From positions 1-64,000 of the forward strand of contig CACYWZ010000001.1 of assembly GCA_902778325.1 (NCBI GenBank): a stretch of DNA of 64,000 nt, read 5' to 3'. Below the pieces are notes generated by a model. It was not told where the DNA came from. It did no database searches and was given only the letters and a program-made list of their open reading frames with translations. Positions 5,873 to 22,552 of this stretch are shown here, piece after piece (the first letter of the stretch is position 1; each line of letters starts with the position of its first letter). Source of the DNA: an uncultured Spirochaetaceae bacterium. Lineage in GTDB: Bacteria > Spirochaetota > Spirochaetia > Treponematales > Treponemataceae. The position numbers and the translations under genes are program-made.

Positions 5873-5945
5873 CGCGGGGTAGAGCAGTTGGAAGCTCGTC
5901 GGGCTCATAACCCGGAGGCCGCAGGTTCGAGTCCTGCCCCCGCTA
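5873..5945 (+). tRNA. initiator tRNA-fMet (anticodon CAT)
   Basis: A 73-nt cloverleaf with no encoded CCA. Acceptor CGCGGGG pairs with CCCCGC, leaving position 1 (C) opposite U72 unpaired. The anticodon arm CGGG-CTCATAA-CCCG has three consecutive G-C pairs. The T arm is GCAGG-TTCGAGT-CCTGC. The 1:72 mismatch and the GGG/CCC stem are the two marks of the bacterial initiator tRNA. Its 3' part is the left attachment site of the mobile element and remains intact. Confidence 0.95.
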
Positions 5946-5981
5946 TAACAGACCACTCAGAAATGAGTGGTTTTTTGTTTT
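5923..5981 (+). repeat. left attachment repeat (attL) of the integrated element
   Basis: 59-bp direct repeat covering the tRNA T arm, acceptor 3' strand and the tRNA terminator. It matches 22494-22552 at 56 of 59 positions. The intact tRNA is on this side, as expected when an element recombines into the 3' end of a tRNA gene and restores it. Confidence 0.9.
5952..5976 (+). terminator. intrinsic terminator of the initiator tRNA
   Basis: Hairpin ACCACTCA-GAAA-TGAGTGGT followed by six T. The same hairpin is present in the right attachment repeat. Confidence 0.85.
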
Positions 5982-6214
5982 TAACTGAAGCAAACTGGAC
6001 CTCAATAGACAAATAAGACCAAAAATAGTGGCATTCTGCCCTTGGTTACCTACAATATAACACTAGATTTTAAAATTGACAATTCAATAAAATTCATCTG
6101 AATTCACTGAAATTCAACTTTTACTTAAACTTCTTACTTTGAGTTCGTGGGCCGTAGGTTTTTGGCCTGCGGGATAAAGCATTTTAGATCAATTTTGCAA
6201 TCTTTTTTCAATTT

Positions 6215-6253
6215 TTTACACAAACTTAACAATTCTTTAATTGCAATTTTACT
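6215..6253 (+). promoter_or_regulatory. Pho box upstream of phoB
   Basis: Direct half-sites at 11-bp steps: TTTACA (6215), TTAACA (6226), TTAATT (6237), TTTACT (6248). This matches the Bacillus-type PhoP/PhoB box (TT-A-ACA repeats, 11-bp period). A -10-like TATAAC is at 6263-6268, only six bases before the phoB ATG. Autoregulation is inferred. Confidence 0.75.
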
Positions 6254-6274
6254 CAAATCATTTATAACTAAGAT

Positions 6275-6943
6275 ATGGTTTATATTCTTGAAGACGATGA
6301 CAACATCCGTAAGCTCATCAATTATTCATTAAAAAGTCAGGGATTTGAAGTTCAGGATTTTGCACTGCCTTCTGCATTTTGGTCAGCTCTTCAAACTAAA
6401 AACCCGGATCTACTTTTGCTGGATATAATGCTTCCTGAAGAAGACGGTATTTCCATTCTAAAAAAGCTTCGTTCAAATCCGAAAACTTCTACAATTCCCG
6501 TAATCATGCTTACCTCAAAAGATTCAGAATACGATGTTGTTACAGGCCTTGATTCTGGTGCTGACGATTATGTTACAAAACCTTTTGGAATGATGGCTCT
6601 TGTTTCCCGCATAAAAGCAGTTCTTCGCCGCTACGAAAAATCAGATTCTCATAAAGAACTTCTTGAGGCTGGCGGAATTAAAATTGATGAAAATCAGCAT
6701 ACAGTTTTTGCAGGCACCCAGCAGCTTTTTCTTACAGTCAAGGAATTCGACCTGCTTGTCCTGCTTATAAAAAATCGCGGAAATGTGCTTACCCGTGAAC
6801 AGCTTCTTGAATCTGTATGGGGCCTTTCTTCCGAGATAGAAAGCCGCACCGTAGATGTTCACATTCGTACCCTGCGTGCAAAACTTGGTGAATATGAAAA
6901 AAATATCGAAACAATCCGCGGAGTCGGATATAAGTTTAATTAG
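6275..6943 (+). CDS. phoB: phosphate regulon response regulator PhoB/PhoP
   Basis: 222-residue OmpR-family response regulator. Receiver domain at 1-120 with acidic pocket EDDD, phospho-acceptor Asp in LLLLDIMLPEEDG, Thr in IMLTSKD and Lys in YVTKPF. A winged-helix domain follows (about 130-222: EFDLLVLLIKNRGNVLTREQLL, VDVHIRTLRAKLG). It pairs with the downstream sensor kinase PhoR and should bind the 11-bp repeats before each transcription unit on the element. No ribosome site precedes the ATG, and a -10-like box sits six bases upstream, so the mRNA may be leaderless. The name rests on family plus pst/phoA context. Confidence 0.9.
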   Translation: MVYILEDDDNIRKLINYSLKSQGFEVQDFALPSAFWSALQTKNPDLLLLDIMLPEEDGISILKKLRSNPKTSTIPVIMLTSKDSEYDVVTGLDSGADDYVTKPFGMMALVSRIKAVLRRYEKSDSHKELLEAGGIKIDENQHTVFAGTQQLFLTVKEFDLLVLLIKNRGNVLTREQLLESVWGLSSEIESRTVDVHIRTLRAKLGEYEKNIETIRGVGYKFN

Positions 6944-6954
6944 GAATGCAGAAA

Positions 6955-7068: not shown

Positions 7069-7090
7069 AACATAAAGGAGATTGCTCAAC

Positions 7091-8419
7091 ATGAAACCAA
7101 AATCACTGACCTTTAGAATCTTCATCAACACTTTTTTTGTTGGAACTCTTATTTATTTTATCTGTGCGTTTTTATTCATTTCAAATATGTACGGATATTT
7201 TGAAAAGCAGATTTTTTCAGAACTTAAAACCGAAAGTTTATTTTTGGAAAATTCAGTCTTAAATCAACAATTGGACCATCTTTCCGAATTACAAACAGAA
7301 AATCGTATAACACTTATCCACTCTGACGGAACCGTTTATTTTGACAATAAAGTTGATGCTGCCAAACTTGAAAATCATGGAGCAAGACAGGAATTCCTTG
7401 AGGCAAAAAACAACGGCTCAATTCAAATTTCCCGTTTCTCTTCCACAATGACAGAAAAAACTCTTTACTTTGCACGGCTTCTTCCAAATGGGGATGTCCT
7501 TAGAATCAGCTGCAATCAGCATTCTGTGTGGGTTCTTGTTTTAGGAATGAGTCAGATTTTGTTGATTATGCTGGTAATTGCAGTAATCATTTCAGGTTTG
7601 TCGGCTAACTGGATTAGTAAAAAAGTTGTAGAACCATTAAACACAATTGACTTTGAAAATCCGGAAGTTTCAGAAGTTTATGAAGAATTGAAACCATTTA
7701 CCAAACGCATCATAGAAGAAAATTACGAAAAAGCGCAGAGGGAAGAACTTCGTCAGCAGTTTACGGCAAATGTAAGTCACGAATTAAAAACCCCTCTTAC
7801 AAGCATTTCAGGCTTTGCAGAAATCTTAAAAGCTGGTGGAATAGATGAAGCCACAACAAAAGATTTTGCCTCATCAATTTATGATGAAAGCCAGCGGATG
7901 ATAAATCTTGTAAACGACATTATCAGATTAAGCAAACTCGATGAAAAATCCATCAGTCTTGAAAAAGAAGCCTTGAGCCTGAGAGAAATGTGCCGCGAAG
8001 CAATTGAAGCTGTTTCTGTTAATGCCAGAGCAAAAAATGTATCTATAAATCTTACCGGGGACTCCGGCTTAATCAACGGTGTACGGCCTGTTATTTATGA
8101 AATGGTTTTTAATCTGATAGACAATGCCGTAAAATACAATGTTCCGGACGGAAAAGTAGAAATCAACATAAAAAACTTTATGGAATCAAACCGGGTATTT
8201 TTTACAGTCCAAGATACAGGAATCGGAATCCCAGCCGCAGAAAAAGACCGAATTTTTGAACGCTTTTACAGAATAGACAAAAGCCGCTCAAAACAAAACG
8301 GCGGAACAGGGCTTGGCCTATCAATTGTAAAGCACGCCGCAAAATATCACGATGCCAGCATTCTTGTAAACAGCGAAGTTGGAAAAGGCAGCACTTTTAC
8401 GGTAATTTTTCCAATGTAA
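7091..8419 (+). CDS. phoR: phosphate regulon sensor histidine kinase PhoR
   Basis: 442-residue membrane kinase. TM1 is at about 9-31 (FINTFFVGTLIYFICAFLF), an extracytoplasmic stretch follows to about 150, then TM2 (VLGMSQILLIMLVIAVIIS). The dimerisation/phospho-acceptor helix has NVSHELKTPLTSISGF; the ATPase domain shows NLIDNAVKYN, DTGIGIP, FYRIDKSRS and GTGLGLSIVKH. It autophosphorylates and passes phosphate to PhoB. I chose ATG 7091 because AAAGGAG (7074-7080) lies ten bases upstream; a TTG at 7082 is too close. PhoR normally gets its signal from the Pst transporter through PhoU, both encoded here. Confidence 0.9.
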   Translation: MKPKSLTFRIFINTFFVGTLIYFICAFLFISNMYGYFEKQIFSELKTESLFLENSVLNQQLDHLSELQTENRITLIHSDGTVYFDNKVDAAKLENHGARQEFLEAKNNGSIQISRFSSTMTEKTLYFARLLPNGDVLRISCNQHSVWVLVLGMSQILLIMLVIAVIISGLSANWISKKVVEPLNTIDFENPEVSEVYEELKPFTKRIIEENYEKAQREELRQQFTANVSHELKTPLTSISGFAEILKAGGIDEATTKDFASSIYDESQRMINLVNDIIRLSKLDEKSISLEKEALSLREMCREAIEAVSVNARAKNVSINLTGDSGLINGVRPVIYEMVFNLIDNAVKYNVPDGKVEINIKNFMESNRVFFTVQDTGIGIPAAEKDRIFERFYRIDKSRSKQNGGTGLGLSIVKHAAKYHDASILVNSEVGKGSTFTVIFPM

Positions 8420-8421
8420 AT

Positions 8422-8438
8422 TTTACATAAACTTAACA
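8422..8438 (+). promoter_or_regulatory. Pho box upstream of the Na/Pi symporter
   Basis: TTTACA-TAAAC-TTAACA directly after the phoR stop. A weak -10 (TATTAA, about 8473) lies six bases before the ATG at 8483, and no ribosome site is visible, so a leaderless start is possible. Confidence 0.65.
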
Positions 8439-8482
8439 AAAATAATATTCTAAAACTTCACTTCCTCTGTCATATTAACAAT

Positions 8483-10132
8483 ATGATTTGGAATGTAATA
8501 TCTCAGATTGCGGGTTTTATTGGTGCTCTTTGTCTCCTTCTTTTTGGAATGAATATGCTTAGCAACGGTATTCAAAAGGGGGCCGGAAGCGGGCTGCAGA
8601 AGTTGCTTGGAAAAATCACTGGGAACCGTTTTTATGCGGTGCTTACTGGAATCGGGGTTACTGCCATTATCCAGAGTTCAGGAGCTACGACTGTTATGGT
8701 GGTTTCCTTTGTAAATGCTGAGATTCTGACTCTGGAACAGGCAATCGGCGTAATTTTTGGTGCAAACATTGGCACTACAGTCACCGCCTGGATTGTATCT
8801 TTTTTTGGATTTAGTTTTTCCATAGCGGCTATGGCAATTCCTCTTTTTGGATTGGGCTACATCATTAAATATTTTAAGAAATTCCGAATTCACAATTTTG
8901 CTGAATGTTTTATGGGGTTTGCTCTTTTGTTTATGGGGCTAGGGCTTCTTAAAGAAAGCCTGGAACTTGGACCTGCTGCTACAAGACTTTTTACAGCAAT
9001 AAACAGCTGGGGAATTGGAGGAATCTTTTTAGGCGTTCTGATTGGTGCCATTATAACAGCTCTGATTCATTCAAGTTCCGCCATGACTGCAATCGTTCTG
9101 ACTATGGCTGCCAATGGAAGTTTAAGCTGGGAACTTAGCGCAGCAATCGTTCTTGGAAGTAACATTGGTTCAACGGTAGATGCGGTAATGTCCAGTTTTG
9201 GTGCCAGCGTAAATGCCCGACGTACAGCCCTTGTTCATGTGGCATTCAATGTTACGGGAACAGTCCTTGCCCTGCTAATTTTTAAACCTTTTCTTCAACT
9301 TATAGATTTTATTGTCCCACTTAAACCTTCTGAAAATATTACAACTCACATTGCAATGCTTCATACAGTTTTTAATATCTGTGCGACTTTATTGTTTATC
9401 CCTTTTGTTAATCAGATTGCAATAATTGCCCGTAAAGTCATTAAAGAAACTTCAGAAGAAAAAGACGAACATTACCATCTTCCTGCAATTCTTCCTCATT
9501 CAAGAATCAGTGCAGATTTATATTCCTACCAGATTCAGACTGAAATTACAAAAATGAGCGCAAAAGTTATAGAGATGTTTGATTCTGTGTGTAACAGTTT
9601 TGTAAATCCACAAAAAGCAGATGAAGAAAACGACCATGTAAAATATCTTGAAAACTACATTGATGAAATGAACGCCGCCATCACCGAATTTTTGCAGAAA
9701 TGTTCGCGTCTTCCAAATGCAAATCATAACGATCGCCAGCATTTTTCTTCACTTCTGCATGTAACTGATAATCTTGAGAATCTCAGCGATGAGACCTGTT
9801 CTTTGATGCATACAGTCCGAAAATATGTAACTGACACGGAATACAAAACGGATTCAAAACGCAGTCACGAAATCATGGATTATGTTGAAAGTGTCCGCAT
9901 TTTCTTTGAACAGACTTGTGTCTACTTCACAATCGGTTCCTCAGCCGAAGAACGACTTTCCGGTGAAGCCATTGAACAAAAGATTGACAGAACTAAAAAA
10001 GAGCTTAAAAAGGCCAGCCGTAAACGTCTTGAATCTGGTGCCGATGTAAAGGAAGAACTTAATTACATGGATATGGTTCGCAAAATTGAACGAGCCGGCG
10101 ATTGTGTTTATTCGATTTTGCAGTGTTTGTAA
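8483..10132 (+). CDS. Na+/phosphate symporter family protein with C-terminal PhoU-like domain
   Basis: 549-residue low-affinity phosphate transporter of the NptA/YjbB type. The membrane part (about 1-310) holds the two inverted Na/Pi repeats with their QSSG and HSSS signatures (QSSGATTVMVV, GANIGTTVTA, HSSSAMTAIVLTMAA, GSNIGSTV). The C-terminal 200 residues are a helical PhoU-like domain (IEMFDSVCNSFVNPQ, VRKIERAGDCVYSI). It moves Pi across the inner membrane; family members can work as exporter or importer. It follows phoBR in the same direction with its own Pho box. Confidence 0.88.
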   Translation: MIWNVISQIAGFIGALCLLLFGMNMLSNGIQKGAGSGLQKLLGKITGNRFYAVLTGIGVTAIIQSSGATTVMVVSFVNAEILTLEQAIGVIFGANIGTTVTAWIVSFFGFSFSIAAMAIPLFGLGYIIKYFKKFRIHNFAECFMGFALLFMGLGLLKESLELGPAATRLFTAINSWGIGGIFLGVLIGAIITALIHSSSAMTAIVLTMAANGSLSWELSAAIVLGSNIGSTVDAVMSSFGASVNARRTALVHVAFNVTGTVLALLIFKPFLQLIDFIVPLKPSENITTHIAMLHTVFNICATLLFIPFVNQIAIIARKVIKETSEEKDEHYHLPAILPHSRISADLYSYQIQTEITKMSAKVIEMFDSVCNSFVNPQKADEENDHVKYLENYIDEMNAAITEFLQKCSRLPNANHNDRQHFSSLLHVTDNLENLSDETCSLMHTVRKYVTDTEYKTDSKRSHEIMDYVESVRIFFEQTCVYFTIGSSAEERLSGEAIEQKIDRTKKELKKASRKRLESGADVKEELNYMDMVRKIERAGDCVYSILQCL

Positions 10133-10247: not shown

Positions 10248-10270
10248 CCAGAAAATCAGTGGTCTGGCCT

Positions 10271-11791
10271 CTAGTCTTTCACAACCTTAGTAAGTTTTGC
10301 CATTTTCTTGTAGATTTCTGTGTTGTCGTAGAAGCCTTTGAATTCTTCCTGACCTGCACCTAAGGCAAATACTGGAACTGGCAAACCTGTATGACTGTTT
10401 GAAGTCCAGCCCAATCCTGCCTTTGCATTCAAAATGTGAGTGATTGTAATTGTAAGTGGCTCGTAAGTTCCGTACAAATCATATTCCTGCTGATTTCGAC
10501 TCTTATCGTTTTTGATTGTCTTCTCGTAAGCTGTCTTGATACGTCCAAGTTCGTAGTCTGTAAGAACAAGTCCGCCATTTTTATCAGAACCATTTGAACC
10601 TGGAAGTTTAAGGCCAAAGAGTTTTTCTACATCCGCCATAACAGTTTCAAAACTTGTACCGTTCTTTTTGTAAGACGAAACATAATCTGAATCAAACTTT
10701 GCGTATGAGATTTTCTGTCCGTCCAATGTTCGGAAGAACAAGTTGTAATCTGTTCCAGCATAGCCGATTGTAAGTCCCCCAGTTTCGTGATCTGCAGTTA
10801 CAAGGATCAGTGTCTCTTTAGGATGTTTATTATAGAAAGAGATTGCTTCTTCTACGGCCTCGCTCAAAGCCAATGTGTCTGCAATTGAAGAACGGGCATC
10901 GTTAGCATGGCAAGCCCAGTCAATTTTTCCGCCTTCTACCATCATGAAGAAACCTGTTTTGTTATCTAGAATTTCAATTCCTTTGCGAACATAATCCCGA
11001 AGCGACCACTCTCCAGATTTTCGGTCGTTGTCATAGCTCATGGAATCTGCATCAGCCAATGTTTCCGCAACAAGGATTGCCTTGTCACCATTTTTAAGTG
11101 CATCCGCTGATTTTTGATCAAAACAAACTTTGTAACCTGCCTGCTTAGCAAGCTCATAAATTGAAGTTTTGTCTTTGTTTTTGTCCTGAGGTTCCATTAA
11201 AGCACCACCAGCAAAATAGTCAAAGTTTGAAACAACAAGTTCTTCACCAATTGCATAGTTTGATTTCCGGCTTGCCTGATGAGCGTAAGTTGCTGCGGGT
11301 GTTGCGTGATTCAAGTTTACTGTAGAAATTACACCAATCTTGTATTTTTTCTGATCCCGAAGCTGTTCTGCAATTGTGCGGTACTTAATCTTTTTTGTAA
11401 TGTCCACATTAATTGAAGAAGAATGAGTTTTGTAGCCAGTAAAAATTGATGTGGCAGTTGAAGCCGAATCTGGTGCAAAAGAAGTTGCATCGTAAGTGCT
11501 TGCCGAACCTGCTACAGGAAACTGATAAAAACTTAAAGCTTTCATTTCTGGTGAATCAGATGGATTTTCTGATTTTTTTACAACATCAACAATTCCTGCT
11601 GCATCTTTACCTGCATAGTAAGCAGCACTCTGAATCTGTGGATAGCTCATTCCATCCCCTACAAAAACAAACATGTATTTTGGAGTCCCTTTTCCTGTAA
11701 CTGGAGCAGTAATTTTTGCTTCTGCATGAAGGCTTGCAGAAGCAACCAGCAATGTAGCCAAAACTAAAGCTGTTTTTTCTAATTTTTTCAT
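10271..11791 (-). CDS. phoA: periplasmic alkaline phosphatase
   Basis: 506-residue metalloenzyme that frees Pi from organic phosphate outside the cytoplasm. Signal peptide MKKLEKTALVLATLLVASASLHAEA. Metal ligand FVGDGMS at about 44; nucleophile Ser in APDSASTATSIFTGYKT; metal ligands HATPAATYAH, VEGGKIDWACHAND, VTADHETGG; a C-terminal SNSHTGLPVPVFALG with the last zinc His. The length is typical of bacterial PhoA. It has four Pho half-sites upstream and a long 5' hairpin over its ribosome site. It is monocistronic, converging with the Na/Pi gene across a terminator. Confidence 0.93.
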   Translation of the reverse strand: MKKLEKTALVLATLLVASASLHAEAKITAPVTGKGTPKYMFVFVGDGMSYPQIQSAAYYAGKDAAGIVDVVKKSENPSDSPEMKALSFYQFPVAGSASTYDATSFAPDSASTATSIFTGYKTHSSSINVDITKKIKYRTIAEQLRDQKKYKIGVISTVNLNHATPAATYAHQASRKSNYAIGEELVVSNFDYFAGGALMEPQDKNKDKTSIYELAKQAGYKVCFDQKSADALKNGDKAILVAETLADADSMSYDNDRKSGEWSLRDYVRKGIEILDNKTGFFMMVEGGKIDWACHANDARSSIADTLALSEAVEEAISFYNKHPKETLILVTADHETGGLTIGYAGTDYNLFFRTLDGQKISYAKFDSDYVSSYKKNGTSFETVMADVEKLFGLKLPGSNGSDKNGGLVLTDYELGRIKTAYEKTIKNDKSRNQQEYDLYGTYEPLTITITHILNAKAGLGWTSNSHTGLPVPVFALGAGQEEFKGFYDNTEIYKKMAKLTKVVKD

Positions 11792-11874: not shown

Positions 11875-11913
11875 TATTAAGCCTTAATGTAGGATGTGTT
11901 AAGCCTTTGTAAA
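11875..11913 (-). promoter_or_regulatory. Pho box upstream of phoA
   Basis: Minus-strand half-sites at 11-bp steps: TTTACA (11913), TTAACA (11902), TACATT (11891), TTAATA (11880). The first lies inside the last codons of the yibE/F-family gene. Confidence 0.75.
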
Positions 11914-13023
11914 ATTGTCTTTGTTTGTAAGAAGAATTCCAGAAATAAAGGCGGTTAATGGAGCTGTCATTGCAAGTCCAAAACTTCCTGCAATTGTGTT
12001 GATGATTTCGGCGGCTACCACATTGTTATTCAGAATATTGTAAACTGGAGTTCCCTGAGCCATAAAAGTCATAAGAAAAGCGATGCAACTTCCAGAATAT
12101 GCCAGCAAAAGTGTAGTTGTCATTGTTCCCATGGCGGCACGAGCAACTGCAAGTCCTGATTTTATGGCTTTTTTTGTTGAAATGTCCGGACAATTTCGTA
12201 CAACTTCAGACACAGCTGAGGTAATATCAACACTAAGATCCATTACAGAACCGCTGGCCCCAATAAAAACAGAGGCCATAAAAATCTGAGTTAAGTTCAA
12301 ATCGGCAAAACCTGAATACAAAAGTGCCTCAGAATTTGCCATTACCGCTCCGTGAATATGAAAAGCTTTACTACAAATTATTGAAAGAATCATGGCAAAA
12401 ATAATTCCGCTCATTGAGCCAAAGAATGAAGATAAAAGCCGTTTATCAAGCCCGTAAACAAAAAGAAGAATCACGAAAGTCATTATGGCAACTGCAACTA
12501 GTCCAACAAAAATCGAATTATAACCTTTTAAAAAGAGCGGAACTAAAATTTTCCACAAAACAAGAATCGTGATTACAAAAGACAAAACCGAGCGAAGACC
12601 AACACCACGAGCAAAGCAAATCAGAAATAGTGCAAAAGCAATTGCAAGAACAAGTTCGCCATCAAGGCGGTAGTAATCAATTAGATTGATAGAAATTATT
12701 TCTCCTTCGTCATGATGTACAACAGCCTGAGCTTTATCTCCTGGTCTAAAAAGTTTATCCTGAGAAAGAGAACCTCCCAGCATATTCCAGCCAAACGAGG
12801 TCTGTCCCTCAAATCTGCCAGTTAAAAAACGAACTTTGCAAATCTGTTGACCGGTGCGAATTAATCCTGTATCAATAAGGCTTGAATTATCCACTTCTTC
12901 AACAAGCACTTTGCATTTTTCAGCATCCTTAAATTGAAGAGCACCTTCAAAACCGGTAGGAAGAAATATTAATACTACAATAACTATCGAAATTCCAACC
13001 AAAAAAGAAAATCGATGTTTCAT
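11899..13023 (-). CDS. YibE/F-family membrane protein in the pst-phoU operon
   Basis: 374-residue inner-membrane protein. The N-terminal TM (FSFLVGISIVIVVLIFLPTG) is followed by a beta-rich extracytoplasmic domain to about 115, then about eight TM segments. YibE/F signatures include GASGSVMDLSVDITSAVSEV and ARAAMGTMTTTLLLAYSGS. I chose ATG 13023, which overlaps the phoU stop (ATGA) and has GGGAGAGAGG upstream, over an earlier in-frame start at 13056. It is therefore translationally coupled to phoU. The family has no firmly established function; coupling to phoU suggests a part in phosphate handling. Confidence 0.85.
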   Translation of the reverse strand: MKHRFSFLVGISIVIVVLIFLPTGFEGALQFKDAEKCKVLVEEVDNSSLIDTGLIRTGQQICKVRFLTGRFEGQTSFGWNMLGGSLSQDKLFRPGDKAQAVVHHDEGEIISINLIDYYRLDGELVLAIAFALFLICFARGVGLRSVLSFVITILVLWKILVPLFLKGYNSIFVGLVAVAIMTFVILLFVYGLDKRLLSSFFGSMSGIIFAMILSIICSKAFHIHGAVMANSEALLYSGFADLNLTQIFMASVFIGASGSVMDLSVDITSAVSEVVRNCPDISTKKAIKSGLAVARAAMGTMTTTLLLAYSGSCIAFLMTFMAQGTPVYNILNNNVVAAEIINTIAGSFGLAMTAPLTAFISGILLTNKDNFTKA

Positions 13024-13655: not shown

Positions 13656-13668
13656 TTTTTTTTCTCCA

Positions 13669-14514: not shown

Positions 14515-15453
14515 TTATTTTTTGACTCTTTTTGCTACCACATTTGCAAAAGCATTAATCCCCACAACCATTGCCAAAAGCACAACAGCCGTAGCAAAGG
14601 CCTGCCCGGTATGAAGTCCTTCCGAACTCAAAACATACATGTGAATTGCAAGCGTTCGTCCAGACCCAAACAGATTTTTCGGCACCTGAGCTACAGTTCC
14701 CGCAGTGTAAATTAAGGCAGCAGTTTCACCTGCAACGCGCCCGGTTGCAAGAATTACTCCACTCAAAATACCTGGCACAGCACTTGGCAAGATTACCTTA
14801 AACACCGTGCGTAATTTTCCGGCTCCAAGTCCATAGCTTCCTTCCCGGAATGAATCTGACACCGCAAGCAAAGCTTCTTCTGTAGTCCGCATAATTGTTG
14901 GAAGAATCATTATTGCAACAGTTGCGGCTCCAGCCATCAGCGAATATCCCCAGTGCAAAAATTCCACAAACAGCAGCATTCCAAAAAGTCCATAAATAAT
15001 AGAAGGAATGCCTGTTAAAGTTTCTGTAGTCATGCGAACCACATTCACAAAGCGGTTTCCTTTACGGGCGTATTCCACAAGGTAGATGGCACTTCCAATT
15101 CCCAAAGGACAAGCAATCAACAATGCAAGCAGCGTTATAATCAAAGTGTTCACAAGAGCCGGCACCACCGAACAATTTTCCGAATTGTATTTCCAGCTAA
15201 AAAGTGATGAAGACAAATAAGGCACGCCTTTTACAAAAATGTAGACAAGCATATAAATCAAAACTGCAAAAGTGATTCCTGAACAAAAATAAACACCAGC
15301 TCTGACAAATCCAGATTTTGTTTTTATGGAAGTTGCGCCCGCAAGCGGTCGCCGGACTTTCCTCACTTCGCTTGCGCTCATCGTCCTCGCCTCCACTCCG
15401 TTCCGGCTGCGGTCGACTAAAGGTGCTCCAATCCCTAACTCAATTTTCATCAT
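14515..15453 (-). CDS. pstA: phosphate ABC transporter permease PstA, with extra N-terminal insertion
   Basis: 312-residue inner-membrane permease with six TM segments from about residue 52 (AGVYFCSGITFAVLIYMLVY). PstA signatures are GIPSIIYGLFGM and the ATPase-docking loop EGSYGLGAGKLRTVFKVILP. Residues 5-42 (rich in Arg, Ser, Gly and Val) match nothing in the family and are encoded by GC-rich DNA. The start overlaps the pstC stop (ATGATGA). It works with PstC as the membrane channel of the high-affinity Pi importer. Confidence 0.92.
   Translation of the reverse strand: MMKIELGIGAPLVDRSRNGVEARTMSASEVRKVRRPLAGATSIKTKSGFVRAGVYFCSGITFAVLIYMLVYIFVKGVPYLSSSLFSWKYNSENCSVVPALVNTLIITLLALLIACPLGIGSAIYLVEYARKGNRFVNVVRMTTETLTGIPSIIYGLFGMLLFVEFLHWGYSLMAGAATVAIMILPTIMRTTEEALLAVSDSFREGSYGLGAGKLRTVFKVILPSAVPGILSGVILATGRVAGETAALIYTAGTVAQVPKNLFGSGRTLAIHMYVLSSEGLHTGQAFATAVVLLAMVVGINAFANVVAKRVKK
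15328..15441. repeat. GC-rich element inserted in frame at the pstA N-terminus
   Basis: About 114 bp, GC-rich, open in the pstA frame and encoding about 38 foreign residues. Read on the minus strand it shares AACGGAGTG and GCAAGCGAAGTGAGG-like words with the pstB insertion. Such in-frame elements are known from Rickettsia (RPE); I do not know a named equivalent here. Confidence 0.55.
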
Positions 15454-16298
15454 AAGCGTCCCCTCTTTTTTACAAGATTAAAAGTCAAATTAATCAGCAG
15501 AATAAATACAAACAAAACAACACCAGTCGCAATAAGAGCATCCCTGTGAAGGTCAGTTGCATACCCCATTTCAATAACGATGTTCGCTGTCAAAGTTCTT
15601 ATGCCTTTCAAAATTGAATCCGGGATTCGAGCTTGATTTCCGGCAACCATAATAACCGCCATTGTTTCACCAATTGCACGACCAATTCCTAGAATTATTC
15701 CAGCCATAATTCCAGATTTTGCTGCAGGCAACATAGTCTTAAAAACACTTCGTTCATGGGTTGCACCAAGAGCACAGCTTCCCTCGTAAAAACTTTGAGG
15801 AACAGCATTCAAGGCACTTTCAGAAACAGAAATAATTGTTGGTAAAATCATCATTCCGAGAAGAATACTCGCTGTAAGAATAGAAGAACCATTTCCTCCA
15901 AAAACATTTCGGACAGCAGGCACAATTACCATAAGTCCAAAAAATCCGTAAACTACACTTGGAATTCCCGCCAGTAAATCAATTGCAGGTTTAAGAATTT
16001 TATGCAGCCATTCAGGACAGAACTTTGACAGAAAAACTGCAGTCATAAGTCCAACTGGAACTCCAACAATAACGGCTCCTGTAGTTACATAAAAACTTCC
16101 AAGAATCATGGGAAAAATGCCATAAAGATCGTTTCCCGGTTTCCATTTAGTTCCAAACAAAAAATCTGCAACTCCAATTTTTTGTATAGCCGGAATGCCA
16201 TTTGCAAATAAAAACAGACAGATTAAAATAACAGCAAGAAAACTGAATCCCGCCGCCAGGAGAAAAATAATTTCCCAGAATTTCTCTTTAATTTTCAT
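15450..16298 (-). CDS. pstC: phosphate ABC transporter permease PstC
   Basis: 282-residue inner-membrane permease. TM1 is at about 10-32 (IIFLLAAGFSFLAVILICLFLF). PstC signatures: FLFGTKWKPG, LAGIPSVVYGFFGL and docking loop EGSCALGATHERSVFKTMLP; GRAIGETMAVIMVAGN near the end. First gene of pstCAB-phoU-yibE/F, with its own Pho half-sites upstream, separated from pstS by a terminator. Length is normal. Confidence 0.94.
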   Translation of the reverse strand: MKIKEKFWEIIFLLAAGFSFLAVILICLFLFANGIPAIQKIGVADFLFGTKWKPGNDLYGIFPMILGSFYVTTGAVIVGVPVGLMTAVFLSKFCPEWLHKILKPAIDLLAGIPSVVYGFFGLMVIVPAVRNVFGGNGSSILTASILLGMMILPTIISVSESALNAVPQSFYEGSCALGATHERSVFKTMLPAAKSGIMAGIILGIGRAIGETMAVIMVAGNQARIPDSILKGIRTLTANIVIEMGYATDLHRDALIATGVVLFVFILLINLTFNLVKKRGRL

Positions 16299-16319: not shown

Positions 16320-16358
16320 TGTTAAGATATAAGGAAGGATTTGTTAAGATTATGTTAA
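16320..16358 (-). promoter_or_regulatory. Pho box upstream of pstC
   Basis: Minus-strand TTAACA at 16358 and 16347 (11 bp apart) and again at 16325 (22 bp further, with a degenerate site between). It implies pstCAB-phoU can be transcribed separately from pstS. Confidence 0.7.
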
Positions 16359-16454: not shown

Positions 16455-17318
16455 TTATTTTACTTCATTCCACTTCAAAGTTTTTCCAGTAAAAATCTGT
16501 TCTACCTGGGCTTTTGAAAGGTTTTCTGTTGGATTTGATTTGTTTACAATTACGGCAATTCCATCAATTGCAATTGTAACTTCCTGAACGCCCTTTGATT
16601 TTTCTGAATCTTTAAGACTGCGACTTACCATTCCAATATCGCAGGTTCCGTTGATTGCGTTTGTTACCCCAGTTGTACTATCGGAAGTCTGAAGTTCGAT
16701 CTTTGCATTTGGGTTTTCGCTTTTGTATGCTTCAATCAATTTTTCCATAACTGGTGAAACTGAAGATGAACCTGAAACTACAATTTTTCCGCTGGCTTTT
16801 GAAGAAATGTAAGACTTAGCTGCAACTTGAATATACTTGTTAGCAGCAATAACTTTTTGTCCTTTATCACTTAAAATAAAATTAACGAAATCCTGAGCAA
16901 CAGGGGTAAGCCCCTCTTTTACTGCAATATTGAACGGACGACTAATTTTATACGAACCATTATTGATGTTTGAAACAGTTGCATCTGCACCGTCAATTTT
17001 TACGGCTTTTACAGAATCATTTAGTGAACCAAGTGAAACATAACCAATAGCATAATTATCACCGGCAACACTTGCAAGCATTACTGCAGTTGAATTTGTA
17101 ATTGCAGCTTCGTCAGTTGTGTAATCAACTTTTTTACCTGATGTATCTTTTTTTTCAATACCAAAAAGTTCAATAAAAGCACCCCGCGTTCCAGATCCGT
17201 CTTCCCGACTCAAAACTGTAATTGATTTCTTGCTGTTAAATTTTGGAGCAGCATAAACCGAACAAATCGATGTAGCCAAAATTGCTCCAAAAATCATTTT
17301 CTGTAGATTGATTTTCAT
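16455..17318 (-). CDS. pstS: periplasmic phosphate-binding protein PstS with swapped halves
   Basis: 287 residues. Signal peptide MKINLQKMIFGAILATSICSVYA, with no lipobox Cys. It captures Pi for PstCAB. In ordinary PstS the ISGSSSVSP phosphate loop comes first and the SREDGSGTR loop second. Here VLSREDGSGTRGAFIEL is at about 35-51, followed by ITNSTAVM and YAIGYVSLGSL, and the GSSSVSPVMEKLIEAY loop comes after, ending with IFTGKTLKWNEVK. All phosphate-contact motifs are present, so this is a circularly permuted version, not a broken gene. I believe similar forms occur in Clostridia. First and only gene of its unit, with a strong Pho box. Confidence 0.9.
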   Translation of the reverse strand: MKINLQKMIFGAILATSICSVYAAPKFNSKKSITVLSREDGSGTRGAFIELFGIEKKDTSGKKVDYTTDEAAITNSTAVMLASVAGDNYAIGYVSLGSLNDSVKAVKIDGADATVSNINNGSYKISRPFNIAVKEGLTPVAQDFVNFILSDKGQKVIAANKYIQVAAKSYISSKASGKIVVSGSSSVSPVMEKLIEAYKSENPNAKIELQTSDSTTGVTNAINGTCDIGMVSRSLKDSEKSKGVQEVTIAIDGIAVIVNKSNPTENLSKAQVEQIFTGKTLKWNEVK

Positions 17319-17375: not shown

Positions 17376-17414
17376 TGTTAAGTTCCAATGTAAAAATTGT
17401 TAAGAACATGTAAA
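17376..17414 (-). promoter_or_regulatory. Pho box upstream of pstS
   Basis: The best example in the window. Minus-strand half-sites: TTTACA (17414), TTAACA (17403), TTACAT (17392), TTAACA (17381), all 11 bp apart. Confidence 0.8.
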
Positions 17415-17439: not shown

Positions 17440-17801
17440 TCGGTCTTTGGCAGAAAATCCAAAAAGACAGAGTCTTGTTGGCGGAGGATTAGAAAGGGCA
17501 ACGTTGCCCTTCTCGGGTTTCCAAAGGGCAGAGCCTTTTGGTGGCTATGAAGTGGAGAAAAAAAGCGGTGAAAGTTTCCTTTTTGGGAAGCTTTCATTTG
17601 CCCGCGCTTTTCGGAACGGAAGAGACAAGGGGTCGAGGGGATATGCCCTCGCACAATAGAAATTTGTTCGCAGATTTTTGTAAAAAACGTGGGCAAACTT
17701 CTATTGTGTTAGAACTTGGCCACAAGTTCTGGGGGAGTGCCGAAGGCTTTTTTTTCATGCCTTTACGGCTCATTTTCTGTAAGGGAAACGGTGCGCTAAC
17801 T
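17440..17801. repeat. GC-rich, palindrome-rich non-coding block between pstS and the relaxase
   Basis: No credible gene. It contains the perfect palindrome AGGGCAACGTTGCCCT, a 15-bp inverted repeat CACAATAGAAATTTG (17652-17666) with its complement at 17694-17708 (one mismatch), and directly after it AGAACTTG-GCCA-CAAGTTCT (17711-17730). The block separates the phosphate cargo from the mobility module. The paired hairpins could be a nick site or replication signal, but this is unproven. Confidence 0.55.
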
Positions 17802-17837
17802 AAAAAAAACGCAATCAAGCAGTATTGCAAGATTGCG
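17802..17837 (-). terminator. intrinsic terminator of the relaxase gene
   Basis: On the minus strand CGCAATC - loop - GATTGCG (17837-17810) followed by eight T (17809-17802), 23 bp beyond the relaxase stop. Confidence 0.85.
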
Positions 17838-17859
17838 TATTTGTTGAAAACTGGAAGAA

Positions 17860-19617
17860 TTACCGCTCAATGTCGTAATTACGCGAGCGGATTTTTTTTC
17901 TGCGTTCCTGAACTTCTGGAATTGCTTCCTTAATTTCACGAACTTCCTTAATCTGGCTGAGTGTATTTCCTCTCATGCCTTTTTCGATGTACTCTCCGAA
18001 ATTGCTGCAGTAGCTTTGCCTCATGTCTTCCGCAACAATCATCAGTTCATCTGGTGTCTTGTTCCAGAAGTGTTTTGCAAAATACTGCGCCTTATGAAGC
18101 CATCCGCAGAACTTTTCTTCAAGACCGTTAAACCATTCGCAAAGGCCTTTTCCATCTCTTCTTCTTGCCATAAGTCTTGCATCGTCAAACTTTATGTCAT
18201 CTGCAAAAGTGAAGTATGGGGTAGCCGCATTGTTGTTGACTTTCTCGGCCCTTTCTGCGAGTTCCTTAGTTTCCCTCAGAATCTGGTCTAAGGCTCTGTC
18301 TTTTTCTTTTACCTCCTTCTTTTTCTTTTTAAGTTTCTGCACGAACTTGTGAAGGGATTCGGAAGCATGTTTTCTGGCGTTCGCTAAGAAAGTCTCTTTT
18401 TTTGCAACATTTTCCTCGCGCTCTATTAATTCATCTTCCCTGTCGCTCAGCTTGAATTCCCTGCTCTTAAAGTCGTACTCCTTCTGTTCAACATACGCGT
18501 TATGCTCTTCCTTTTCTTTTTCAAGGTCCTTTGCCTTCTGCTTGTTTTCTTCTGCTTGTTTCTGGTTGTCTTTTTCCCATTCAACATTATCAGCCGATTC
18601 TTTATCAACTGCCTTTACATTTTGAAGAAGCTTTTCTCCAAGTGCGTAAACTTCACTTTTAATGCTCGGGTCTTTTGAATAAATGTAATCTTCCGTTGTA
18701 AGATGGTCTCGCTTTTCATTCGGATTCTCTATTTCAAGGCCATGCTCACGTGCGATTTTTACTAAAAGATTCCTCTGCGCATTAGTCCATTGAATCAGGT
18801 TTGTTACCATGCGCGATTTTGTGGTTTTCTCGCCTTCGGCTTCTGCTTCTTCAGTCTGTTCTGTTTGCACTGGCTTATCTTTAAGACTTTCAAAACATTT
18901 CATACGCTCGTTCAGCGGAACTTCTTCAAGCAAAGGCTCTTCCTTCTTTTTTCTGCGTGGTTTCTTCCTCAGACCGTAGACTTTCTCTGCGACTTCCGGA
19001 TCAATCTCTATGTTCATGATGCCTTGTTCAAGTAAAGCACCGTTCATGGAGTTTTGAATCTTCTGTCCGCGCTTGCAGTTGTAGGATATGGGGATATAGT
19101 CTAAGTGCATGTGGGGCGCACCTTTTACAAAACCACCGTTTCCGTCCTTCCGCATTTCATCCGCATGGTAGTAAGCACCGATTACCTTCATGTTTGGATT
19201 CTGCTTCTGGAACTCTTCCAGAAAAGCCTTGTAAATTTCCTTCTGGACTTCTGGATCTGGCATCTGTTCAACGTTGCCGATTGTAATAAGGGCTTCCCTT
19301 ACGGGTACAAGGTCTTTTGATTTCTTTACCTTTTCCCAATAAGAATTGAACTGACGTTCCTTCTTTCTCTGCTTACCGTTGTATTCTCTGAAAGCTTCTC
19401 CGAAAATCTGCTCGTAGGCTTGTTTTGGGGGAACGTCAATCCATGTTTCGTGCAGTCCGCCTTTTACAATGTGGTCTTGCTTTTCACAATATTTGGGGTC
19501 TCTGATATTGTGTTCTCGGCAAGCCTGATAAAGCTTCTTGCGTTTTCTCCCGCTTGAATCAATTCCATCTTTTTCCATTCCGCCGTTGTGGAAAGATGCC
19601 GTATAGCTTTCGCTCAC
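17860..19617 (-). CDS. MobV-family relaxase (plasmid mobilization/Pre-like protein)
   Basis: About 585 residues. It nicks the transfer origin and pilots the strand in mobilization. The N-terminal Mob/Pre domain shows SFHNGGMEKDG, then EQIFGEAFREYN, the REALITIGN stretch and the metal-binding motif GAPHMHLDYIPISY with the preceding YYHADEMRKDG, as in MOBV enzymes. The C-terminal half is a long charged coiled coil (about 330-480) as is usual. I favour GTG 19617, with AAAGGAG nine bases upstream, over a TTG at 19665. It follows the ParB-domain gene in the same direction. Confidence 0.87.
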   Translation of the reverse strand: MSESYTASFHNGGMEKDGIDSSGRKRKKLYQACREHNIRDPKYCEKQDHIVKGGLHETWIDVPPKQAYEQIFGEAFREYNGKQRKKERQFNSYWEKVKKSKDLVPVREALITIGNVEQMPDPEVQKEIYKAFLEEFQKQNPNMKVIGAYYHADEMRKDGNGGFVKGAPHMHLDYIPISYNCKRGQKIQNSMNGALLEQGIMNIEIDPEVAEKVYGLRKKPRRKKKEEPLLEEVPLNERMKCFESLKDKPVQTEQTEEAEAEGEKTTKSRMVTNLIQWTNAQRNLLVKIAREHGLEIENPNEKRDHLTTEDYIYSKDPSIKSEVYALGEKLLQNVKAVDKESADNVEWEKDNQKQAEENKQKAKDLEKEKEEHNAYVEQKEYDFKSREFKLSDREDELIEREENVAKKETFLANARKHASESLHKFVQKLKKKKKEVKEKDRALDQILRETKELAERAEKVNNNAATPYFTFADDIKFDDARLMARRRDGKGLCEWFNGLEEKFCGWLHKAQYFAKHFWNKTPDELMIVAEDMRQSYCSNFGEYIEKGMRGNTLSQIKEVREIKEAIPEVQERRKKIRSRNYDIER

Positions 19618-19704
19618 TGTTGTACTCCTTTGGGCAGGCACTTTCGCTTTTGGCTTTTGGAACAAAGGCCCTGGGAGTAGCCCTTGTTTCCGTTTTACCT
19701 TGTA

Positions 19705-20559
19705 TTATGCGCTCAGAGATTTTTCAAGATCTTCAAGGCTGATTCCTTTTCTAATCTCACTGATTGCGTAACGAACACCTTTTGCAAAGGCTTCATCCGT
19801 CTTTGTTTTGGATACTGACTTTGCAGTTGATTTTTTTGCTACAGGCTTTGCTTTCACTTCTTCAGCTTTAGCTTTTGCCTCCGCTTCTGACTCAGGCTTT
19901 GGAGCTGCTGGGGAGACAGTCTCTTTGTCGGACTTTTCTTCAGACTTTGGCTCTGGCTTAGGCTTTTTCTTGTCCTGAATCTGCTTGTAAACCTGATTCA
20001 TGCTGATTTCATCTTTCTTGATGGCTTCCAGCTGCTCAGGGCTTGCTTCCTTCAAAACAAGTCTTGTTTTTTCAACTGTTTTTGCTGAGACTCCAATCTG
20101 CTTTGCGATGATTTCAGATGCCTTTCCCTTTTCACCGACTACGTTTCCTTTACCTTTCTCAAAGTTGAAGTTTGCGACTGCATCTAAAAGAGCTTGTCCG
20201 CTTAAGTTTCTGCGGTTTATCTGCTCTTTGATTGCAAAAGTCTTTGCTTCTTCGATGTCTGCAAAGTTGTGTATGATACAAGGAATTGTCTTGTTTCCCA
20301 GAGATTCCCATGCGCACTTTCTTGTGTGGCCGTCAATCAGAATGTTTTCCTTTCCGCGCTTCCAGATGTGAATCTCATGTCCTGACTTGAAGCCCTCTTC
20401 TTTCATCGACTGTTTCATTTTTTCGAGAACATCTTCTTCCATGACCAGAAGTTTCTGGAACTCTGGAATGAGAACAATGTCTTTGATTTTGAGAATTTTC
20501 TTCTCGCTGATTTTCTGTGTGGTGTCTTTCACCATGCTGATAATATCGTTAAGTTTCAT
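19705..20559 (-). CDS. ParB/Spo0J-like nuclease-domain protein
   Basis: 284 residues. The N-terminal ParB-like domain (about 25-115) contains the CTP/DNA-binding type motifs LIDGHTRKCAWE and KEQINRRNLSG; a central helix-turn-helix follows (ASEIIAKQIGVSAKTVEKTR). The tail is Lys/Glu/Ala/Pro-rich and probably disordered. It lies between the excisionase-like gene and the relaxase. On integrative elements such proteins serve in regulation, partition of the excised circle or relaxosome accessory roles; which one is unknown. AAGGAT precedes the ATG. Confidence 0.82.
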   Translation of the reverse strand: MKLNDIISMVKDTTQKISEKKILKIKDIVLIPEFQKLLVMEEDVLEKMKQSMKEEGFKSGHEIHIWKRGKENILIDGHTRKCAWESLGNKTIPCIIHNFADIEEAKTFAIKEQINRRNLSGQALLDAVANFNFEKGKGNVVGEKGKASEIIAKQIGVSAKTVEKTRLVLKEASPEQLEAIKKDEISMNQVYKQIQDKKKPKPEPKSEEKSDKETVSPAAPKPESEAEAKAKAEEVKAKPVAKKSTAKSVSKTKTDEAFAKGVRYAISEIRKGISLEDLEKSLSA

Positions 20560-20643
20560 ATATTTATCCTTATGTGTTGTTTGTGTTTGTTTTTCACTGA
20601 CAGTCAGAAAACTTCCGGACTGCCAGTGCCGACTTCTAAGTAC

Positions 20644-20841
20644 TTAGGCTGATGTCTGTAAGCGTTCAACGAATGCCAGAACATCAGAATTCTTGTACTT
20701 TCTTCTGCGTCCATCTTTGAAGGCCCTTTCTTTCAGCCAGTCATAGCGTTCGCAGGAATGAAATGAAGAAGGTGCGCATCGTAAGTATTCGATGACTTCC
20801 TTCTGGAGCCAGAGTTTATCTGGTGATGTTTCATTTTTCAT
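20644..20841 (-). CDS. excisionase-like small DNA-binding protein
   Basis: 65 residues from ATG 20841, which has GGAGG upstream; a longer TTG start at 20856 would include the ribosome site. The sequence LWLQKEVIEYLRCAPSSFHS and RRRKYKNSDVLAFVERL fits the MerR-like helix-turn-helix with wing found in Xis/HTH_17 proteins. Located directly downstream of the integrase, where element excisionases usually lie, but in the operon order integrase-xis-parB-mob. Family call moderate. Confidence 0.7.
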   Translation of the reverse strand: MKNETSPDKLWLQKEVIEYLRCAPSSFHSCERYDWLKERAFKDGRRRKYKNSDVLAFVERLQTSA

Positions 20842-20887
20842 GTGCTGCTCCTCCAAAAGATAAAGTTTTAACTCTCTCCGATTATTC

Positions 20888-22345
20888 TCAAGCTCCTGCC
20901 TTCTCAGGTAAAAGCTTCAGTGCATTTTCTTCTTCATCCTTTATGACATAAACTGCATCCGAGCTAAGTTTTTTAAGGATTGGTGAAAACAAATGCTCCG
21001 TACTTTCTGCAATCTTATTCAGGGCAATTTCTTTCTGAATATGATTTGCATAATTGTTGAATACACTTTCAGTTTTATGGCCTGAACCAATCATACAGAT
21101 TCTCTGGTCGCCGATATCAGAAAGTGTATTTGTACACCATTCATGACGGAAACTGTGGAAGGTAATTTCTTTGGGATTCGGATACCCGATTGATTCCAGA
21201 GCCCTTCTGAGATATCTGTTGAATCTTTTAGGTGACAAAGGCTTATCGGGACTTTGAGGACTGAAGAAGATAAACGATTCAGGTCCTGTTCCCCACGGAT
21301 TAAAGGACGCCTGATTCAATATCATGTCTCTTAATTCAGGCGGGATTCTGAATTCTCTTTCTTCTCCGTTCTTTGGAGATTTGAGTCCTTCATAAGGGCT
21401 GTATGAATGGCGGATAAAAATTCTGTCTTCACCGATATCACGAATCTGAAGTGCAAGAATTTCTCCCTGCCGCATTCCAGTAAAACAGGCAATAACGCAT
21501 GCAAGTTTTACACGGTCGTTATCCCATTCAGCGTTGAAGAGCTTTATAGTCTGTTCAAGTGAAAGAATAACTTTTTTCTTTGGAGTGCTCTTAGGAAGAA
21601 TGATTCCTGAATAACAGTTGTTTTCCGTCATTCCGTTCAGGTGTGCCCATTTCAGGGGAATTGTCACCGCCTGAAGAACTGCCTTTACAGTTTTTGGTGA
21701 AAGTTTCTGAGTGGACTCAGCCATAAAGATTTTCTTCACATCATCTCTGGTAATTTCTCCAAGAAGCTTTTCTTCCAGAAGAGGTTTCCAGTAATGCTTG
21801 ATAATGTTTCTCATGTTCAGGATATGGCGGTTTGTTTCAGAATGACCTTTTAATTCCATTTCACGAAGATAAGCAGATTTATCCCGCGTCCAGAAATCAA
21901 TAAGGTATTCCATTGCATCACAGTCACCTTTTGCATTTGTCCGTACAGCGGCTTGAATGATTTTTCGGGCTTTCATTACCTCGATAAGATCATTAATTTC
22001 CTGCTCAGACAAATCATTCGTCCTGAGATAGTTGAGAATAGAAATAAATGTGAAGGATTGTTTGCCGATTGCTCTTCCAGTTCTGGATGTTCGTTCAGGT
22101 ACACAGCCTTTTACGACCCATTCCATTACCGTACGTTCGGCATCAGTTTTGTTTTCTTTTCCCGTACTTTTGTTGCGGGAAATTGTTCCGTCTGGGAGAC
22201 GGACTTGAGCATACCAAAATGGTGAATGCTTTGTTTTGAATAAAAGATAAGGTTTATTCAAGTTCCTTTTCCTTACCTCGGGCAGGCAGAAAAGGTATTT
22301 ATACTTTATCATTATGGTTTCTAAATGTAAAGTACATTCTGACAA
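20888..22345 (-). CDS. int: tyrosine recombinase (site-specific integrase)
   Basis: 485 residues from a TTG at 22345; an ATG at 22312 giving 474 residues is an alternative, and neither has a strong ribosome site. N-terminal arm-binding segment, core-binding SAM-like domain at about 150-260, catalytic domain at about 270-460 with Arg in TGMRQGEILAL, HSFRHEW (H-x-x-R), the GSGHKTESVF histidine and the nucleophile Tyr in NNYANH. It reads away from the right att repeat, whose edge is 149 bp upstream. It should recombine att sites in the tRNA-fMet 3' end. All catalytic residues are present. Confidence 0.93.
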   Translation of the reverse strand: MSECTLHLETIMIKYKYLFCLPEVRKRNLNKPYLLFKTKHSPFWYAQVRLPDGTISRNKSTGKENKTDAERTVMEWVVKGCVPERTSRTGRAIGKQSFTFISILNYLRTNDLSEQEINDLIEVMKARKIIQAAVRTNAKGDCDAMEYLIDFWTRDKSAYLREMELKGHSETNRHILNMRNIIKHYWKPLLEEKLLGEITRDDVKKIFMAESTQKLSPKTVKAVLQAVTIPLKWAHLNGMTENNCYSGIILPKSTPKKKVILSLEQTIKLFNAEWDNDRVKLACVIACFTGMRQGEILALQIRDIGEDRIFIRHSYSPYEGLKSPKNGEEREFRIPPELRDMILNQASFNPWGTGPESFIFFSPQSPDKPLSPKRFNRYLRRALESIGYPNPKEITFHSFRHEWCTNTLSDIGDQRICMIGSGHKTESVFNNYANHIQKEIALNKIAESTEHLFSPILKKLSSDAVYVIKDEEENALKLLPEKAGA

Positions 22346-22493
22346 ATACGCGTATTTTTAATCCTTATCGTTTACTTTATATTCGAATTTTCAGTTTTAA
22401 GCCCCTGAAAACAGCAAATATAAGTAAAGCTAATTCCTTATACTATATAGAATTAAACCATCCGGATTCTAAGTGGCATAAAGAGGGCCATCA

Positions 22494-22552
22494 AGGTTCG
22501 AGTCCTGCCTCCGCTATAGCAAACCACTCAGAAATGAGTGGTTTTTTGTTTT
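22494..22552 (+). repeat. right attachment repeat (attR) of the integrated element
   Basis: Copy of the tRNA-fMet 3' end and terminator, 56/59 identical to 5923-5981; the three changes are all transitions (C/T, A/G, G/A). No 5' tRNA half precedes it, so it is the displaced end. Confidence 0.9.

Follow-up and report, generated by a model that had tools for sequence, protein, structure and literature searches.

The first 64,000 nucleotides of contig CACYWZ010000001.1 (GenBank assembly GCA_902778325.1, from an uncultured Spirochaetaceae bacterium, a gut-type spirochaete), here called the window, contain an island of approximately 16.6 kb that is very probably an integrative and mobilizable element (IME) at a tRNA-fMet gene, carrying an exchangeable phosphate-starvation (pho) cargo and recently moved between species. 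IMEs possess a tyrosine integrase, attachment-site (att) repeats derived from a tRNA gene and a relaxase of their own, without mating-pair genes. The island resembles the MobV-type IMEs in having a tyrosine integrase, tRNA-derived att repeats, a relaxase and no mating-pair genes that could be seen, and differs from them in its self-regulated nutrient-stress regulon, its ParB-like backbone gene and its block-exchanged cargo interval. The att boundaries, near-identity across species, an empty site for the corresponding array of a relative (genome G156), cargo swapping and Pho boxes can be read directly from the DNA; excision by the integrase, transfer by MobV through the conjugation machinery of a helper, and pho regulation are what we infer from the encoded genes. 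The original prediction for this DNA, a regulon on a transferable element at tRNA-fMet, is strongly supported by the near-identity, the exact boundaries, sister elements and empty sites.

The integration target is a forward-strand tRNA-Met(CAT) gene (positions 5873–5945, ARAGORN), which we take to be the initiator tRNA from the GGG/CCC of its anticodon stem. The predicted 59-bp att repeats are present as direct repeats on the forward strand at 5923–5981 (attL) and 22494–22552 (attR), 95% identical and with a spacing of 16,571 bp. The first copy is the 3' end of the tRNA gene together with its terminator. The stretch common to the sister elements measures approximately 23–26 bp, which places a core of approximately 25 bp from position 5923, the remainder of the 59 bp being copied terminator. 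Only two copies of a 16-bp core occur in the window, compared with 0.02 expected, and a 131-bp tRNA/att query matched the whole 3.35-Mb, 173-contig genome at E ≤ 0.001 only at attL and attR. The position of attR agrees with the end of the match to G156 and with the empty sites. It follows the integrase gene after a 148-bp spacer that recurs in G156, G005, G022, G185 and G062 (G numbers denote genomes of the genus; G000 is that of the window, 94% complete). The element combines an integrase with direct att repeats at a tRNA 3' end. A chance or unrelated duplication of a tRNA piece, named in advance as one of the findings that would have undermined the proposal, is ruled out for the right repeat by the att-to-att identity with G156 and by the sister elements.

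Among the 201 genus genomes searched, PstC is 98% identical in four others, and the DNA from pstS to phoU (4.2–4.3 kb) is 99.0% identical in G082, 98.9% in G183, 98.8% in G041 and 98.5% in G156. The corresponding recA identities are 71.2, 76.4, 74.9 and 75.5%, and rpoB with its flanks is 69.6–76.4% identical over pieces in G082 and G041; rpoB was not found in G156 or G183. The match to G156 spans most of 5904–22518, from att to att, in pieces of 97.3–98.8% identity, with the exceptions of phoA (89.5%) and yibE/F (77.8%); the integrase DNA is 99.8% identical. Outside the repeats, the left 5.9 kb of the window shares with the 1.2 kb before the G156 tRNA only 37 bp of the tRNA itself, and has no match in the 4.7 kb before the G156 element; the right flanks share only pieces of 52–542 bp at 66–81% identity. 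The G156 element adds Phytase-like and calcineurin-like phosphoesterase genes beside phoA (L093:7171-12021), which are absent from the window. If the same contigs had been placed in several bins, near-identity would be an artefact of binning; most of the genomes are fragmented, and the G183 and G041 copies lie on contigs of 5.7 and 14.6 kb. We regard this as extremely unlikely, given that the contigs bearing the G000, G156 and G082 copies measure 192.6, 63.6 and 101.2 kb and that their flanks are unrelated, and that the copies differ from one another (phoA 89.5 and 90.7%, yibE/F 78 to 99.7%).

Comparison of the tRNA-fMet 3' region in relatives, suggested at the outset as a check, yielded both empty sites (G003 and G192) and other cargo (G005 and G022). 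The empty site of the G156 array is seen at two of the 32 tRNA-fMet sites compared: in G003 and G192 the tRNA is joined directly to DNA like the flank right of attR in G156, the first long pieces being 91% (1,887 bp) and 94% (1,615 bp) identical; the repeat in common at these sites again measures approximately 23–26 bp. Smaller parts of that flank are recognizable at the protein level in G145, G199, G103 and G006. At its tRNA, the G156 element is preceded by another stretch that bears an integrase, and the site therefore holds tandem arrays. The DNA upstream of tRNA-fMet is conserved among many of the compared genomes, but not with the window itself.

The window almost certainly does not contain a normal chromosomal pho-pst locus whose right edge bears a tRNA-like repeat by chance. 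Diverged pho-pst sets without adjoining backbone do occur in other genus genomes, within the stretches fetched, as such a locus would lead one to expect. Yet the 148-bp spacer between integrase and repeat is shared by five other genomes, identity begins and stops at the repeats, and G003 and G192 show empty sites. The tRNA-fMet 3' end is found in one of the 19 pst-bearing stretches of other genomes (5.7–19 kb each), that of the element carrier G156, and 0 of the 18 others lie at tRNA-fMet; pho-pst genes at the same place without the integrase, a possibility raised beforehand, were not seen among the 19. The pst set of G105, 2.6 kb from a tRNA-Met gene, was considered as a locus at this site and rejected, as that tRNA is not the fMet gene.

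The proteins of the window were scanned against Pfam, NCBIfam and PHROGs. Fourteen genes were counted between the att sites; 13 were assigned and one open reading frame (ORF) of 70 residues was not. The predicted pho and pst genes were recovered throughout. On the forward strand lie a phoB-type response regulator (6275–6943; Pfam, best NCBIfam match TIGR02154 PhoB, below cut-off), a phoR-type histidine kinase with an sCache-like sensor domain (7082–8419; Pfam, NCBIfam PnpS/PhoR below cut-off) and a Na/Pi cotransporter with a PhoU domain (naPi, 8483–10132; Pfam Na_Pi_cotrans and NCBIfam). The reverse strand encodes the alkaline phosphatase phoA, with a signal-like N-terminus by eye (10271–11791; Pfam Alk_phosphatase), a yibE/F-family membrane protein (11899–13056; Pfam YibE_F), phoU (13020–13676; Pfam PhoU), pstB (13669–14502, in two pieces that both match ABC_tran), pstA (14515–15453; TIGR00974 above cut-off), pstC (15450–16298; TIGR02138 above cut-off) and a PstS2-like pstS with permuted halves (16455–17318; Pfam PBP_like_2). 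The set thus comprises a PhoB/PhoR pair, both members under the NCBIfam equivalog cut-offs, together with Pst and PhoU. The swapped halves of PstS, noticed in the original prediction, are real: the GTRG half stands ahead of the GSSSV half in a single reading frame. The protein is colinear with residues 3–265 of Protein Data Bank (PDB) entry 4h1x ('Phosphate-binding protein pstS 2'), which rules out a novel swapped protein; other solved PstS structures match as two swapped stretches or over one half.

The genes of mobility are also on the reverse strand. The MobV-type relaxase (17860–19665) matches PF01076 (Mob_Pre) with 39.4 bits against a cut-off of 25.5, as well as plasmid recombination proteins of the same family, and the tyrosine integrase (20888–22345) matches PF00589 (Phage_integrase) and phrog_1, so both had been named correctly. 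No complete conjugation machinery is present among the 14 genes. Between relaxase and integrase lie a ParB-like protein (19705–20559; PHROGs match, no Pfam match) and the 70-residue ORF (20644–20856), at the position of an excisionase. The latter has no match in Pfam, NCBIfam or PHROGs, so its earlier description as excisionase-like is a label of position. PADLOC, run for two island genes, gave one weak methyltransferase match for the ParB-like protein and none for YibE/F. Defence cargo within the att sites was rejected on the absence of a clear match for these two genes and on the location of the restriction system, which lies outside attR.

The element carries its own Pho boxes, as had been claimed, in the form of predicted sites. 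All five exact occurrences of TTWACA-N5-TTWACA in the window precede the five pho transcription units on the coding strand: before phoB (6215–6231, forward), the Na/Pi symporter (8422–8438, forward), phoA (11897–11913, reverse), pstC (16342–16358, reverse) and pstS (17398–17414, reverse). The expected number is 0.10, and none of 100 shuffles reached five. Allowing one mismatch gave six boxes compared with 2.76 expected (six reached in 5 of 100 shuffles), which places the signal in the exact sites. The whole genome has 10 exact boxes, five on the island and five elsewhere, compared with seven for the pattern read backwards as a control. One non-island box lies on contig C82, 58 bp upstream of the gene for a resident Na/Pi symporter, behind which a PhoB-like regulator is encoded; two overlapping boxes on C51 and one on C32 are inside unrelated ORFs, and the box on C56 is at the junction of two permease genes. 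Among the relatives, G082 keeps five boxes, and G156 and G099 show four each.

The backbone and the cargo meet at sharp junctions. The left end of the backbone (5982–6172), after tRNA-fMet, is 85–94% identical in eight other genomes; homology stops near 6172 and resumes at 17446–17458. The right-hand cargo/backbone junction is placed at 17441–17448, as the cargo match of G041 ends at 17441 and elements without pho cargo match from 17446–17458. It is followed by a conserved non-coding block (17446–17859) with a 15-bp inverted repeat at 17652/17694, a candidate origin of transfer (oriT). In 8 of the 201 genomes, G000 included, the integrase is matched at 90% identity or more along almost the whole of its length, and G147 has a further 97% identical fragment; pho cargo accompanies it in G000 and G156. 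Among the pst stretches fetched from other genomes, matches to mobV, parB and the integrase adjoin pst only in G156 and G082, and the regulon is therefore not tied to the element throughout the genus.

A model of the element follows from these features. Its attachment site would be the tRNA-fMet 3' end. A fixed backbone, comprising approximately 190 bp on the left and the non-coding block, mobV, the ParB-like gene, the small ORF, the integrase and attR on the right, would enclose an exchangeable cargo module of approximately 11.3 kb, here the phosphate-starvation regulon. PhoR, together with PstSCAB and PhoU, would sense phosphate limitation, and PhoB would bind the TTWACA direct repeats before phoB, naPi, phoA, pstC and pstS, switching on uptake and the secreted phosphatase. 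The integrase would excise the element and MobV would drive its transfer through the conjugation machinery of a helper. In this way the element, or a cargo handed between related elements, would have moved recently across deeply separated species of one Treponema-type genus.

Several observations weigh against a mobile, regulon-bearing element of this kind. Many of the 201 genus genomes are fragmented assemblies, and the G156 element itself lies on two contigs with a deduced junction. No close relative of the window's species with an empty site was found, the best recA identity among 12 other genomes being 76.7% (G062). We infer the oriT and excision, and the excisionase is unsupported. Three of the integrase carriers show no pho cargo on the side covered: G005 and G022, in which the same ends enclose other cargo, and G076, which has no pho genes on 11 kb of its cargo side. 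The contigs of G062, G185 and G075 stop short of any cargo that could be judged. The pst end of the G041 cargo adjoins unrelated DNA; the cargo is not always in this backbone. Finally, pstB of the window has an in-frame TGA at 14088–14086 (codon 139), absent at that place in 18 of 18 other translated copies (the G009 copy was omitted, its second piece not having been found), and this copy of PstSCAB is accordingly incomplete. The pst genes have too few differences between copies, and no clear third-position bias, to show selection (by codon position, 3/1/1 for pstS against G082 and 2/3/4 for pstB against G183).

The whole regulon with pstSCAB announced by the original prediction is thus present as a gene set, without an intact pstB, whose private stop had been overlooked; one transporter gene looks broken, and the element copy in this genome may be impaired. 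An island that was once mobile but has since become fixed and is decaying, with its ends kept and its cargo non-functional in this host, is an unlikely explanation, albeit one to be taken seriously. It would account for the private TGA, for the lack of a clear codon-position bias in the pst genes and for the second set of PhoB, PhoR-like and Na/Pi genes found in other parts of the genome. A frameshift in hsdM, outside the element, points to either decay or consensus errors: the gene is split in two frames here and is one open frame in G022, so errors of the latter kind are possible in this assembly. Decay is at odds with the 99.8% identity of the integrase DNA to the G156 copy, with the matches of all cargo genes except pstB to homologues over nearly their full length, and with four near-identical pstB copies in other genomes, which are uninterrupted. 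It is also at odds with the codon positions of naPi, phoR and phoA, which, like parB, differ from G156 and G082 mainly at third positions (1/1/24 for naPi against G156); the mobV differences from G156 are likewise mainly at third positions. An observation apart from these is a variable in-frame insert (14180–14300) at one site of PstB across the genus, where translated spans range from 249 to 297 residues. It partly resembles a palindromic repeat, forms a 120-bp stretch without a second copy in the window, and is reminiscent of elements known to insert into reading frames.

The mobile element proposed here belongs to a family with varied cargo. Ten proteins scanned from the G005 cargo include LamB/YcsF, a carboxyltransferase (5-oxoprolinase-type), a D-glutamate-cyclase-like protein and a branched-chain amino-acid transporter, with aminotransferase, Fe-ADH, AAA and PucR-type regulator genes, which we take to be an amino-acid/5-oxoproline set. 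The view that such elements usually carry defence or resistance genes does not fit this family, as the G005 sister element carries metabolic genes. Five proteins scanned from the G022 cargo comprise a sulfatase-modifying-factor/flavodoxin protein, DUF3737, a hydrolase, a weak TetR-type match and a cupin/CMD protein. The left end of G001 is related too, and a second att copy stands 8.2 kb further along; a DNA adenine methyltransferase and an EVE/AAA protein are encoded in the interval, but the contig has no integrase of this kind, and G001 was therefore not counted as a member. G082 has the pho cargo and a 98% identical ParB-like protein, but its integrase is 55–56% and its relaxase 68–73% identical, and no repeat longer than 12 bp was found as an att site between the end stretches compared. 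Together with the unrelated neighbouring DNA in G041, this suggests that the cargo block also moves between vehicles. G147, G200, G082 and G086 (L070, L071, L072, L073) contain sister elements with integrases 54–55% identical, in which a conserved right end runs into differing G/C-rich, repeat-like sequence, with no tRNA in the stretches.

The genome possesses other phosphate genes. A search of the 94%-complete assembly revealed no further PstC with a similar score: of five matches, the best two are the island PstC and PstA, and the others among those listed are weak. A resident Na/Pi symporter with a PhoU domain is encoded on C14, a Na/Pi-phoB pair on C82 (L300) and a PhoR-like kinase, 55–56% identical, on C27 (L320). 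The C82 pair and the C27 kinase match, at approximately 97% on the protein level, one three-gene operon in G200 (L322), which suggests that a resident Na/Pi-phoB-phoR operon is split across two contigs in this assembly. The C82 symporter occurs in 11 of 201 genomes (E ≤ 1e-60), so this operon may be mobile too. Full-length PstC at least 65% identical is present in 37 of the 201 genomes, with one partial match in G113. Among plasmid records, 75 have a PstC-like match, 73 of them below 60% identity. The 382-kb plasmid pTS2 of Treponema saccharophilum (NZ_AP025290.1, L323) encodes a PstC 81.5% identical, at a locus with a substrate-binding protein gene, pstCAB, phoU, a regulator, a kinase and a Na/Pi symporter. 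It resembles the island in bearing a similar pho-pst set on an extrachromosomal replicon, and differs in being typed as non-mobilizable; the island integrase had no match in the plasmid collection at E 1e-20. We put forward tentatively, at slightly less than even chances, a broader proposal: that the tRNA-fMet elements of the genus are general carriers of plug-in regulons, their exchangeable block being able to accommodate an entire physiological module and its regulator (phosphate starvation in the window, the amino-acid/5-oxoproline set with a PucR-type regulator in G005), that the phosphate response is tradable, that an incoming PhoB-PhoR pair can take over resident Na/Pi-phoB genes, where a box of the same kind is present, and that the block is also handed to elements with other integrases, as in G082.

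A Firmicute donor had also been suggested, and holds for an old origin of the Pst lineage, as indicated by the PstC tree and the permuted PstS, and not for a recent donor, the recent copies being in the same genus. The tree, which had been called for as a check, contains 135 rows, was built by a quick method with SH-aLRT support only and leaves 60 of 130 forks open; five full-length and one partial PstC-bearing genus genomes were left out. The window lies inside a 27-row genus clade (99), four other genus rows form a second clade (99) and G024 stands apart. All 32 genus rows fall within a set of 78 rows (support 97) that is otherwise mainly Clostridia; 23 of 24 other spirochaetes from a phylum search lie outside this set, and two named spirochaete records (L190, L217) lie inside it. 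The genus rows thus nest among Clostridia, but the affinity of the Pst transporter lineage is judged old, because the best Clostridial PstC among the matches kept is only 72% identical.

Recent arrival of the regulon from a Firmicute is accordingly very unlikely. Besides the nesting of PstC, it could appeal to the permuted PstS, solved as PstS2 and common there (61 permuted, 12 canonical and 7 incomplete among the best 80 loci of the PstC search, mostly Firmicutes), and to an exact box somewhere in 38 of these loci, again mostly Firmicutes, a count with no chance baseline. The Bacillus-like boxes, offered earlier as a hint of such a donor, are not diagnostic, because an exact box also precedes the resident Na/Pi-phoB operon of this genome. 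A recent Firmicute source also conflicts with the 72% identity of the best Clostridial PstC and the single clade of 27 genus sequences, and no Firmicute record more than 90% identical across the cargo was found among the 80 loci. The island PhoB is 59% identical to the resident PhoB compared with at most 57% to PhoB-like regulators in these loci, so the regulator gives no indication of a Firmicute source.

Pho regulons are generally regarded as part of core physiology. Here a Pho regulon with its own boxes appears to have travelled on a mobile element over a recA distance of 24–29%, and a near-complete phosphate kit on a recently moved element would make a stress response tradable like an accessory gene. 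Because the cargo slot is interchangeable, the unit exchanged may be a whole regulon and not a single gene. Two questions arise: whether an imported two-component regulon is functional and cross-talks in the host that receives it, and whether the phosphate available in the gut or rumen exerts selection for the element. Mobilizable islands and phosphate islands are known kinds; what is new is their combination, together with the evidence across species and the exchangeable slot for a regulon. A search of the literature, with most subscription journals outside its reach, found no precedent for an integrative mobilizable element that bears a whole Pho regulon, nor is there one in the accessible portions of two further papers (PMC10322971, PMC6803676). 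Marine HIMB59 genomes are described, in the available part of the report, as having flexible phosphate-related genomic islands that vary between genomes and carry pstSCAB-phoU, phoBR and, in certain versions, alkaline phosphatase (PMC10734472). These occupy one genome position, and the word integrase is absent from the main text as far as available, unlike the defined vehicle, att sites and distant-species transfer seen here (PMC10734472). Bovine Treponema phagedenis has a 22.1-kb pst/phoU-phoBR cluster that is peculiar to it, and for which the authors, in the portion available, suggest horizontal transfer (PMC8049484). It has the same core gene set as the island, also in a treponeme, and is set apart, by its description there, by a transposase, and in some strains a transposon, at its edges in place of tRNA att sites (PMC8049484).

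Outside the element, at the same tRNA site, a type I restriction-modification system is encoded on the forward strand (22762–32566). Its homologues also lie right of attR in relatives, close in G022 and more distant in G156 and G185. Between hsdM and hsdR lie two additional candidate defence genes, PDC-S13 and PDC-S06, and a weak PrrC-like match was obtained for PDC-S06. Five loci (L100, L103, L281, L286 and L290) contain, shortly after tRNA-fMet or attR, a unit of approximately 190 nt that starts close to the T-arm of the tRNA in reverse complement and finishes with a second copy of the tRNA 3' end; this unit is possibly a small tRNA-derived repeat or RNA.

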